A stretch of 48,666 bases of DNA, taken from Jatrophihabitans endophyticus. Its GTDB lineage: Bacteria > Actinomycetota > Actinomycetes > Mycobacteriales > Jatrophihabitantaceae. Below, piece after piece: positions 11,792-16,637 of this stretch (the stretch's first letter is position 1; every line of letters starts with the position of its first letter). Below the pieces are notes generated by a model. That model had not been told where the DNA came from. It did no database searches and saw nothing but the letters and a program-made list of their open reading frames with translations. Position numbers and translations under genes: made by a program. The stretch covers positions 1 through 48,666 of the forward strand of contig NZ_FQVU01000009.1 in assembly GCF_900129455.1 (NCBI RefSeq), given 5' to 3'.

Positions 11792-12262
11792 ATGAGCGCA
11801 CCCGTGACCTACTCCTCGATCGAGGACATCGAGGCCGGCGTCGGGGTCGAGGTCGGCCCGACCGACTGGCTGACGATCGAGCAGTCCCGGATCGACGGCT
11901 TCGCCGACGACACCCTCGACCACCAGTGGATCCACGTCGACGCCGAGCGCGCCAAGAACGGGCCGTTCGGCGCGACGGTCGCGCACGGCTTCCTGACGCT
12001 GTCGCTGGTGCCCTACTTCAACAGCCGGCTGCGCACGGTCGAGAACGTCCGCATGGGCGTGAACTACGGGCTGGACAGGGTGCGCTTCCCCGCCCCGGTC
12101 CGGGTCGGCGCGCGGGTGCGCAGCCGGATGACCATCGTGGCGTGCGAGCGGATCGCCGAGGACGCCGTGCAGCTCGTGACGCGCGCGACCATCGAGGTCG
12201 AGGGCAGCGACAAGCCGGCCTGCATCGCCGACCTGGTGAGCCGGTACTACTTCGAGCGCTGA
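11792..12262 (+). CDS. MaoC-family (R)-enoyl-CoA hydratase-like protein, copy 1
   Basis: 156 residues, a single hot-dog domain. The hydratase motif region is DHQWIHVDAERAKNGPFGAT VAHGFLTLSLVPYF, containing the catalytic Asp/His pair and the AHG of the substrate loop. MaoC-like enzymes add water to trans-2-enoyl-CoA. Further conserved segments are VRMGVNYGLDRVRFPAPVRV GAR and EGSDKPACIADLVSRYY. It is a clear paralogue of the gene at 16182-16637. A sigma factor gene begins right after its stop. Confidence 0.88.
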   Translation: MSAPVTYSSIEDIEAGVGVEVGPTDWLTIEQSRIDGFADDTLDHQWIHVDAERAKNGPFGATVAHGFLTLSLVPYFNSRLRTVENVRMGVNYGLDRVRFPAPVRVGARVRSRMTIVACERIAEDAVQLVTRATIEVEGSDKPACIADLVSRYYFER

Positions 12263-14620: not shown

Positions 14621-15958
14621 TTACGAGCGGGCGAGCCGGTAGACGGCGCCGGCCTGGTCGTCGGTGATGTACACGGCACCGTCGGGCCCGCGGACCGCCG
14701 CGACCGGGCGGCCCCACCGCGAGCCGTCGCCGTTCTGGAACCCGCTGACCAGGATCTGCCGGCCGCCGAGCTTGCCCTTCGACCAGTGCAGGAACGTCAC
14801 CGTCGGGGCGCGGGGCGGCGTCCGGTTCCACGACCCGTGCGTGGCGACCAGTGCGCCGGTGCCGAAGGGTTTGGGCAGCGTGGCGAACGCGAGTCCGAGC
14901 GGCGCCGAGTGCGCCGGGAAGCCGCGTTCGAGACGCCGCAGCTTCGCGCAGTCCAGCTTGCTGCCGGTCGGGTTCGTCTCCGCGTCCCGGATGAACGGCC
15001 GGTCGCCGAGGTCGAACTTGGTGCCCTTGCGGCCCGCCGACACGTCCGGCTGCGGCTGGCAGTACGGCCAGCCGAGATCGCGGCCCGAGCGGAGCTTGGC
15101 CAGCGCCTCCATCGGGTGGTCGTTGACGTAGGACGTGATGACCTTGCCGTAGTCGTCGCTGCCGTCGCCGTCGTAGTCACGGTGGTACGGGTACTCGATC
15201 TGGTCGCGGTTGTTGACCGCCGTCCACACCGCGCCCTTCGGGTCGAGCGCGAGGCCGGTGCCGTTGCGCACGCCGCGCGCGTAGACCTGCAGCTTCTTGG
15301 TGGTGGGCGACCACCGCATGATCGTGGCGCGCTGCGGGCTGGCGCTGCGGTCCTGCGCCGAGATGTTGCCGGTGCTGCCGATCGAGAGGTAGACGGTGCC
15401 GTTCGCCGCCACGGCCACGCTCTTGAGCGCGTGCGCGTACTGGCCGCCGAGCTCGGGGCTCTTCGCGTCGGGCAGACCACCGATGAGCTGACGCTTCCCG
15501 GTGGCCTTGCCCTTGGCGTACGCCACGGTGTCGATGCGGTTGCTCTCGGCCACGTAGAGGGTGTTGCCGCGGAAGGCGAGGCCGTGCGGCTGCCGCAGAC
15601 CGGAGAGCAGGGTCCGCGCGGCGGGCGCCTTGCCCTTGCGTGGCGTGAGCACCTGGACGTCGCCGTGGCCGGGGCGTGAGACGAGCAGCCGACGGTCGGG
15701 GGTCCAGACCGCGAGCCGGGGCGCGTCGAGTCGCGCCCAGACCGACATCGTCCAGCCGCGGGGCACCACCACGGTGCGCTTCGTGTCGAACGGCGCGCCG
15801 CCGCGGCCGGCGGGCACCGACACGGTCACGCGGTGTTTCGTCTTGCTCGTGGCGGCCGGCGCGGACCGGTCGTCGGCGCCCGGCGACCCGCAGGCCGTGG
15901 CGACGAGAGCCAGGGCGGGCAGCGCGGCGAACAGCGTGCGGCGACGGGTCATGGTCAT
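14621..15958 (-). CDS. Sorbosone dehydrogenase-like PQQ-type beta-propeller lipoprotein
   Basis: 445 residues. The signal peptide has a lipobox in LVATACGS. The propeller contains GLRQPHGLAFRGNTLYVAES, SVAVAANGTVYLSIGSTGNI, ARGVRNGTGLALDPKGAVWT, a Ca-type loop HRDYDGDGSDDYGK, GWPYCQPQPD, and ATHGSWNRTPP, ending GPDGAVYITDDQAGAVYRL. This matches the L-sorbosone/glucose dehydrogenase group, which oxidises aldoses outside the membrane with PQQ in characterised members; many actinobacterial members have unknown substrates and no PQQ pathway is seen here. GGGAGG lies before the first of two ATGs. It diverges from the MaoC gene across the symmetric repeat array. Confidence 0.88.
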   Translation of the reverse strand: MTMTRRRTLFAALPALALVATACGSPGADDRSAPAATSKTKHRVTVSVPAGRGGAPFDTKRTVVVPRGWTMSVWARLDAPRLAVWTPDRRLLVSRPGHGDVQVLTPRKGKAPAARTLLSGLRQPHGLAFRGNTLYVAESNRIDTVAYAKGKATGKRQLIGGLPDAKSPELGGQYAHALKSVAVAANGTVYLSIGSTGNISAQDRSASPQRATIMRWSPTTKKLQVYARGVRNGTGLALDPKGAVWTAVNNRDQIEYPYHRDYDGDGSDDYGKVITSYVNDHPMEALAKLRSGRDLGWPYCQPQPDVSAGRKGTKFDLGDRPFIRDAETNPTGSKLDCAKLRRLERGFPAHSAPLGLAFATLPKPFGTGALVATHGSWNRTPPRAPTVTFLHWSKGKLGGRQILVSGFQNGDGSRWGRPVAAVRGPDGAVYITDDQAGAVYRLARS

Positions 15959-16014
15959 CGTGGCCTCCCGGGGGTGTCAGCCGTGCGACCCGCCCACCGT
16001 ACGTCGGGGTGGCC

Positions 16015-16120
16015 CGACTGGCGAGTTGCGATGTCGACTGGCGGCTTGCGGGCCGACTGTCGACCTATAGGTCGACAGTCGGCGGAAAAGTCGCCAGTCG
16101 GCGGGGGAAGTCGCCAGTCG
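16015..16120. repeat. Dyad-symmetric array of six 10-bp words around a perfect 32-bp palindrome
   Basis: CGACTGGCGA at 16015-16024, CGACTGGCGG at 16035-16044 and CGACTGTCGA at 16054-16063 are mirrored by TCGACAGTCG at 16072-16081 and TCGCCAGTCG at 16091-16100 and 16111-16120. Every mirror position is exact about a centre between 16067 and 16068. The core (16052-16083) is GCCGACTGTCGACCTA joined to its own reverse complement. Copies recur every 19-20 bases, about two helical turns. The array lies in the 223-base divergent region between the dehydrogenase-like lipoprotein and MaoC copy 2. Confidence 0.9.
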
Positions 16121-16142
16121 ACGGGGGGCGGACGCCGGCCGA

Positions 16143-16148
16143 TACGGT
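16143..16148 (+). promoter_or_regulatory. -10 element of MaoC copy 2
   Basis: TACGGT lies 33 bases before the ATG at 16182, so this message has a leader that includes GGGAG just before the start. The symmetric array ends 23 bases upstream of it, over the expected -35 region. Confidence 0.45.
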
Positions 16149-16181
16149 GAGCCCGCACATCCGCGACTGCCAGGGAGCCCG

Positions 16182-16637
16182 ATGAGGACGTTCGACTCGG
16201 TGAGCGAGCTCGCCGCGATCACCGGCGAGCGGATCGGTGACAGCGAGTGGGTCACGGTCACGCAGCACGAGATCGACCTGTTCGCCGACGCGACCGGCGA
16301 TCACCAGTGGATCCACGTGGACCCGGCGGCGGCGGCCGACGGCCCCTTCGGGACGACGATCGCGCACGGCTTCATGACCCTGGCCCTGCTGCCGCGGCTG
16401 TGGGCGGAGATGTACACCGTCGGCGGCGTGCGGATGGGCGTCAACTACGGCCTGAACAAGGTCCGCTTCCCGGCGCCGGTCCCGGTCGGCTCGCGGCTGC
16501 GCGCGAGCTCGGTCGTGGTGTCGGTCGAGGACCTGGGCCACGGCGCGCACCAGGTCACGCTCGCCACCACCGTCGAGATCGAGGGCGGCGACAAGCCCGC
16601 CTGCGTCGCCGAGAGCGTCGTCCGCTACCTCACCTGA
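16182..16637 (+). CDS. MaoC-family (R)-enoyl-CoA hydratase-like protein, copy 2
   Basis: 151 residues, one hot-dog domain. The catalytic segment FADATGDHQWIHVDPAAAAD then TTIAHGFMTLALLP matches the hydratase 2 motif (Asp and His in GDHQWIHVD) better than copy 1, where the Gly is lost. VRMGVNYGLNKVRFPAPVPV and GGDKPACVAESVVRYL align closely with copy 1 at 11792-12262, so the two are recent paralogues. GGGAGCCCG precedes the ATG. The divergent array upstream suggests specific regulation. It is followed 43 bases later by an unrelated hypothetical gene. Confidence 0.9.
   Translation: MRTFDSVSELAAITGERIGDSEWVTVTQHEIDLFADATGDHQWIHVDPAAAADGPFGTTIAHGFMTLALLPRLWAEMYTVGGVRMGVNYGLNKVRFPAPVPVGSRLRASSVVVSVEDLGHGAHQVTLATTVEIEGGDKPACVAESVVRYLT

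Follow-up and report, generated by a model that had tools for sequence, protein, structure and literature searches.

Results

Architecture of the array and its neighbours

The window analysed here is the whole 48,666-nucleotide stretch of Jatrophihabitans endophyticus DNA (contig NZ_FQVU01000009.1, forward strand). A six-word inverted array with no strand of its own lies at 16015-16120, flanked by divergent genes at 14621-15958 (minus strand) and 16182-16637 (plus strand). Pfam searches upheld the initial annotation of the plus-strand gene, which encodes a MaoC-like dehydratase. The minus-strand gene, annotated as a PQQ-type dehydrogenase-like lipoprotein, is predicted to encode an exported NHL/DUF7133-type protein: DUF7133 and NHL scored above their cut-offs and GSDH under its own. 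The divergent layout was upheld. The -10 element placed upstream of the MaoC gene is unsupported rather than excluded, as a scan of 15940-16200 for sigma-70-type promoters, which is blind to other promoter types, found none. No terminator-like site was found at the array. Elsewhere in the window, a second MaoC-like stretch (11863-12231) lies about 4 kb from that at 16182-16637, and across 369 bases the two share 72% DNA identity.

The array consists of six CGACTGNCGA-like words in exact mirror symmetry about position 16067.5. The plus strand carries the outer left word 1 (16015-16024, CGACTGGCGA), word 2 (16035-16044, CGACTGGCGG, one mismatch) and the inner left word 3 (16054-16063, CGACTGTCGA), and the minus strand carries the inner right word 4 (16072-16081, CGACTGTCGA), word 5 (16091-16100, CGACTGGCGA) and the outer right word 6 (16111-16120, CGACTGGCGA). 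Words are spaced by 20-19-17-19-20 bp, and the two 53-nt arms are 79% complementary without gaps. A perfect 32-bp palindrome (GCCGACTGTCGACCTATAGGTCGACAGTCGGC, 16052-16083; family centre CTATAG) occupies the middle, and the T for G in word 3 is mirrored in word 4. The three words, their three mirrored copies and the central palindrome described in the initial annotation were therefore confirmed, with the correction that one of the six words contains a mismatch; the claim that all copies share one face of the helix holds approximately, a spacing of 19-20 bp being just under two helical turns. By itself, the word is no commoner in the window than in shuffles made by permuting two-base blocks (21 matches at no more than one mismatch, compared with a mean of 42.3). 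The two-word pattern with a 20-bp period was matched once in the window and not at all in 100 shuffles. It is the arrangement of the words that is special in this array, not the single word.

The array belongs to a dispersed family

The whole genome (4.48 Mb in 10 contigs) was searched with a 14-base word pattern, which matched 54 times (reversed control, 2), and with the two-word pattern, which matched 66 times (reversed control, 0); the latter is the search for word pairs at 20-bp spacing that had been proposed as a check. Thirty-four loci were fetched, of which 28, together with the window, yielded 31 arrays; the remaining six (L056 and L060-L064) were array-free and were excluded. All 31 arrays align without gaps in one frame, with words at offsets 0, 20 and 39 on the minus strand and at 56, 75 and 95 on the plus strand. 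The inner four words are present in every array with at most three mismatches of 10, all six words are found in 17 arrays, and one outer word is missing from the other 14. The consensus centre is CGACTGGCGASCTRYAGSTCGCCAGTCG, and the T for G in both inner words sets the window array apart from the other members. Column information is approximately 1.8-2.0 bits in the inner words, 0.75-1.34 in the outer words and 0.01-0.62 in spacer columns 33-36, so that the spacers, already described as unconserved, prove near-random across the family while the inner words are near-invariant. Some arrays, for example L031, L046 and L049, are extended outward through 20-bp units in which the spacer is copied as well.

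Genes around the arrays were called with our own codon-score finder, which places starts approximately. By these calls the 31 arrays lie in 21 tandem, 5 divergent and 5 convergent contexts; one of the convergent cases (L059) depends on a 31-codon open reading frame, and the array of L055 falls inside a predicted gene start. This is the mix shown by gene pairs as a whole over the same regions (162, 41 and 43, respectively) and not that of array-free gaps of at least 60 bp (43, 29 and 3). All gene pairs served as the comparison, since insertion of an array makes the gap that receives it longer. A search of a plasmid collection gave no match, and the exact core pattern gave none in a general collection of genome contigs, which may lack records of this genome or of one very close to it. 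The window array is one of about thirty dispersed repeat copies near many unrelated genes, as one suggestion of the initial annotation had it, and not the private switch of a neighbouring gene.

A gene for a putative nuclease is bracketed by family arrays

On another contig of the same genome, the gene for a 288-residue protein, P0001 (C2:668341-669204), is flanked on both sides by arrays of the family. A single predicted gene lies between the two arrays at this locus (L046), and its left neighbour encodes adenylate kinase. The downstream array of this pair (L046:3617-3740) is itself extended outward by several near-identical, GCGACGCCGACTGGCGAGTT-like 20-bp units.

In the model of P0001, an AbiEi-like domain is followed by a nuclease domain of the Vsr/EDxHD type. 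It had no match in Pfam, NCBIfam or PHROGs and matched the AbiEi profile of PADLOC (E 1.3e-8); among 15 aligned homologues, nine matched DUF559 (PF04480) and six REase_MTES_1575 (PF18741). Residues E176, D209, E220, H226, D235, R238 and W248 are invariant in the 15 aligned sequences. A profile search of the PDB returned 3hrl (E 1.3e-4) and the mobile-intron nuclease 3r3p (E 0.012). The AlphaFold2 model (pLDDT 91, pTM 0.87) gave nothing at E <= 0.001 in Foldseek, and the Z-scores reported here come from VIA-align. Model residues 173-278 matched 3r3p (Z 12.3, rmsd 2.2 over 95 residues), residues 171-278 matched Vsr (1cw0, Z 10.2), and residues 20-168 matched AbiEi (6y8q, Z 11.1, rmsd 3.6 over 130 residues); the N-terminal half also resembles the nucleotidyltransferase toxin MenT1 (Z 9.1-9.4). 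In the alignment, L098 and L099 contain an extra N-terminal stretch that is absent from P0001 and that probably represents the AbiEi winged helix.

Close homologues of the nuclease are bracketed by words of their own

A genome of the same family (G006) contains 13 arrays, each of four copies of a variant word, CGAGTGGCGA, for which 26 arm matches were found against 7 in the reversed control. Two of these arrays bracket a gene whose protein is 48% identical to P0001 over 252 residues. The strongest other match between array-neighbour proteins of the two genomes was an ABC-transporter ATPase (46%), and such matches were taken as resemblance within large families. Closely related nucleases are accompanied by different words. 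In J. endophyticus the first nuclease gene is bracketed by CGACTGGCGAC arrays and a second (C1:488842-489609) by CGAGTGGTCGC; in G006 the two nucleases are bracketed by CGAGTGGCGAC and TGAGTGGCGGG, and the bracketing words are CGAATGGGCAG in G012, TCGGTGGCCAC in G005, CGAGTGGCTAG in G011 and TGAGTGACGGA in G002. A further family, of smaller size and built on the word CGAGTGGTCG, comprises a bracket pair and some four additional sites (10 matches; control, 1).

Flanks were then compared at 34 homologue loci, comprising the 30 of 70 nuclease matches that came with loci and four from a later search. L142 and L143 share contigs with L096 and L095, respectively; L142 replaced L096, which has a 5' flank of 335 bp, and L143 was dropped. 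A repeat common to both flanks was found at 23 of the 34 loci, which are not independent as some share a genome or genus, and at 2 of 35 control genes, which are 23 genes of the window and 12 of relatives and not genome-matched (Fisher test, 4.6e-8); one of the two positive controls is a gene beside the window's own array. At a score of at least 50 the counts were 19 of 34 and 0 of 35 (4.0e-8). All 14 loci with E below 1e-22 were positive. The 11 loci with no common flank repeat (L104, L107-L110, L113-L117 and L119) are those of more distant homologues and include the best copies of two genomes that hold 10 and 11 homologues each. Bracketing copies at L093, L097, L103, L112 and L120 are nearly identical, spacers included, and shared flank repeats extend beyond the family to homologues in Actinomadura, Kribbella soli, K. 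pratensis and a Frankiales MAG. At L111 and L118 the common flank repeats are word arrays of another layout: L118 has CCGTGTTGCG at approximately 20-bp spacing, inverted on the opposite side, and L111 has CCAGCGGGGAA at 31-bp spacing. Protein and repeat are paired in this way in several actinobacterial groups, the words differing between them.

Array presence follows the gene in one genus and varies between genomes

Among nine genomes of one genus (g11), a nuclease match at E <= 1e-10 was found in G012 only, and the G012 array pattern had 42 arm matches in that genome (0 in the control) and none in its eight congeners; three of these eight nuclease-less genomes are 63-85% complete, and the word searched for was that of G012 alone. 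Four G012 word arrays stand in tandem at C1:3672938-3673544, in steps of 177-187 bp. The window core, found in 31 places in its own genome, was found in neither of two genomes of the same genus (G001 and G002, 76-79% complete). Single matches to the core at three mismatches in G019, G044 and G091 equal the level of the reversed control, which matched once in each of five other genomes.

The initial annotation had also called for a comparison of the region in relatives. By DNA search, with the best 12 candidates per genome scored, the order lipoprotein-array-MaoC was not among the matches listed in 23 other genomes, and two genomes of the same genus gave short matches only to the window neighbourhood. 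No array was seen by eye upstream of MaoC homologues in L124, L126, L127 and L132, the sequences viewed at L125 and L128 not covering that side; the lipoprotein-MaoC adjacency was not seen there either, so this comparison bears on the MaoC side.

Kribbella soli arrays contain three words (CGAGTCGTGG), the second at +33 and an inverted third at +70. The pattern count at three mismatches is noisy (79 against 42 in the control for G101, and 45 against 37 for G102), and the three-word template was for this reason relied upon. Twelve K. soli places were picked from earlier matches; ten of them agree with the template at 29 or all of its 30 positions, and several have common spacers. In G114, four places fit with 0-3 mismatches and spacers largely as in K. 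soli.

Thirty-seven Kribbella genomes besides K. soli were searched and 13 inspected. The K. soli array at C2:1997076 lies in a gap of 200 bp, and the orthologous gap is 44-83 bp long and array-free in 9 of the 13; G134 has a gap of 276 bp, and G114, G116 and G135 had no usable anchor pair. The simplest reading of these gap sequences is that the array was gained in the K. soli lineage. At the array-free sites, neither a clean junction nor a target duplication was seen. L185 was also compared with G114 as a candidate clean empty site and was rejected: G114 has no array there, but the spacer that remains could not be aligned. Two more dispersed repeats flank the L185 array (K. soli C3; L185:901-2100, positions 413-551 and 708-841), with many copies in several Kribbella genomes. 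At L158 and L171, by eye apparently the same place in both species, the words are kept and the spacers differ at few positions, and L181 and L218 do not contain the identical Kribbella spacers. From these sequences, only part of the Kribbella array family looks recent.

Discussion

In our view the window array is probably one non-autonomous member of a dispersed family of palindromic elements, recognised and mobilised by an AbiEi-Vsr-type nuclease. The full unit would be the array-nuclease gene-array segment on C2 of the same genome. P0001 would most likely recognise the short words, which are held near-invariant in fixed spacing while the spacers drift; word reading by such a fusion is plausible by analogy, since inverted repeats are bound by AbiEi proteins (PMC3985639). 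The nuclease may nick or cut DNA and so mobilise arrays in trans, an array being copied into new intergenic sites. What was observed is the architecture of the arrays, their dispersal, the bracketing of the gene, the private words of close nucleases, co-occurrence in one genus, an array present in one Kribbella lineage and absent from others, and a nuclease fold with conserved residues of active-site type; word recognition, cleavage and mobilisation are inferred. Several observations count against this reading: the unrelated spacers, the 11 of 34 unbracketed loci, the MenT1-like N-terminal half, the lack of a Pfam, NCBIfam or PHROGs match for P0001, and array-free sites with neither a clean junction nor a target duplication. 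Because the 31 arrays have unrelated spacers, either copying in this genome would be long past or another function maintains the arrays.

Such a function might be that of a chromosomal binding-site system, a regulon or a nucleoid- or terminator-like set of sites for a host protein, possibly the AbiEi-like protein itself as a DNA-binding regulator, with the nuclease gene merely autoregulated through the arrays on its two sides. Near-invariant inner words and drifting spacers are as expected of protein sites, AbiEi is described in PMC3985639 as binding inverted repeats and repressing its own promoter, and many arrays lie near stop codons and fill short intergenic spaces. We nevertheless regard this explanation as unlikely. 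The arrays show the orientation mix of all gene pairs and occur on the 3' side of the nuclease gene too; turnover is high, as seen in the g11 genomes and in G001 and G002; and the K. soli array is absent from orthologous gaps that retain both genes.

Considerably less likely is that the arrays act as hairpins, either as cruciform DNA, which the initial annotation had offered, or as RNA stem-loops at gene ends. The long inverted symmetry would suit such structures, and L038, L040 and L054 are palindromic through the inner spacers. Mirror coupling was detected at column 49 (reached in 0 of 2000 shuffles) and column 38 (5 of 2000), and more weakly at columns 20 (17) and 45 (57), but with approximately 50 columns screened, chance alone should yield one or two weak couplings. 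Spacer complementarity between the arms is the same as when spacers are shuffled among arrays (0.400 compared with 0.406, columns 33-37). Rfam returned three microRNA matches only, all far under their gathering scores, and the array has no terminator-like site. A local cooperative operator of the lipoprotein/MaoC promoter pair, for which the divergent intergenic position and a word spacing near two helical turns speak, is scarcely credible and was rejected on account of the 30 further arrays at unrelated genes, named beforehand as the finding that would count against it, in addition to the orientation mix, the empty scan for sigma-70-type promoters and the array-free MaoC upstream regions that were read in relatives.

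The preferred reading, a nuclease-mobilised element, was compared with known systems. RAYT-REP systems are described in PMC2817692 as species-specific dispersed intergenic palindromes in which a gene is bracketed by its own repeat and repeat presence follows the gene, and in PMC3733652 a REP is a palindrome of 20-40 bp that carries GTAG or CGTC as a tag. The elements reported here resemble these REP/BIME-RAYT systems (TnpA-REP, REPtron) in their dispersed palindromes, in the bracketing of a dedicated gene at 23 of 34 nuclease loci and in repeat abundance that follows the cognate gene (in one genus of nine genomes and for one word, one genome with both and eight with neither). They number in the tens per genome. 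They differ in consisting of 106-bp spaced arrays of several words, with no 20-40 bp GTAG-tagged palindrome, and in their enzyme, which is of the AbiEi-Vsr nuclease type and not a Y1/HUH transposase. A RAYT-linked REP was set aside, as the Y1 transposase profile PF01797 was found in none of three genomes (G000, which is the present genome, G006 and G101), with the control found in 5 of 14 genomes. A layout like that of REP-RAYT with an unrelated enzyme is the best reading.

With EDxHD/Vsr homing endonucleases (I-Bth0305I, 3r3p), P0001 shares the nuclease fold, as judged from profile and model, and the conserved acidic and histidine residues; the difference is that its gene sits between arrays and that gene-less repeats are dispersed. 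Spread through DNA cutting would be common to both under the working idea; on copying into an empty allele, what was observed is the array-free orthologous gap in Kribbella. Residues 20-168 of the model, together with the PADLOC match, link P0001 to the AbiEi antitoxin of AbiE type IV toxin-antitoxin systems, but P0001 is fused to a nuclease domain, and at the one locus L046 it is encoded by a single predicted gene and not in a two-gene operon with AbiEii. DUF559 and REase_MTES_1575, which its homologues match, are families of unknown or predicted function, and a repeat association for them was not found among the matches listed in the open PMC literature. As for MITEs, whose copies are alike over their whole length and have terminal repeats and a target duplication, the Kribbella copies have common spacers and the 31 J. 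endophyticus arrays do not, and the K. soli site showed no target duplication. Among the matches listed in the same literature (titles and abstract openings), none connects nucleases of this type with palindromes that bracket their genes, though one may have been described elsewhere.

RAYT transposases are the one dedicated enzyme class for dispersed bacterial palindromes in the literature surveyed, and the nuclease and its arrays, if the proposal is true, would be a second, unrelated pairing. Many intergenic palindromes of high-GC Gram-positives that lack an explanation would then have a mechanism, DUF559/AbiEi-like nucleases would have a role, and the protein-word pairs would form a natural series marked by repeated change of DNA specificity. 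We give an even chance to the broader proposal that actinobacteria harbour a separate class of mobile palindromic DNA, in which spaced word arrays are driven by word-reading AbiEi-Vsr fusion nucleases through homing-like cut-and-repair copying, each nuclease lineage rewriting its own word and genomes becoming filled with private arrays.

A link between protein identity and word similarity was considered and no simple one was found: the second G006 copy, at 57% identity the closest to P0001, has a word further from CGACTGGCGAC than that of the 48% homologue. The second J. endophyticus nuclease (L121) and the G011 nuclease (L096/L142) both lie, by eye, beside the end of what we take to be an IclR-type regulator gene, which suggests a shared position of the two nucleases.
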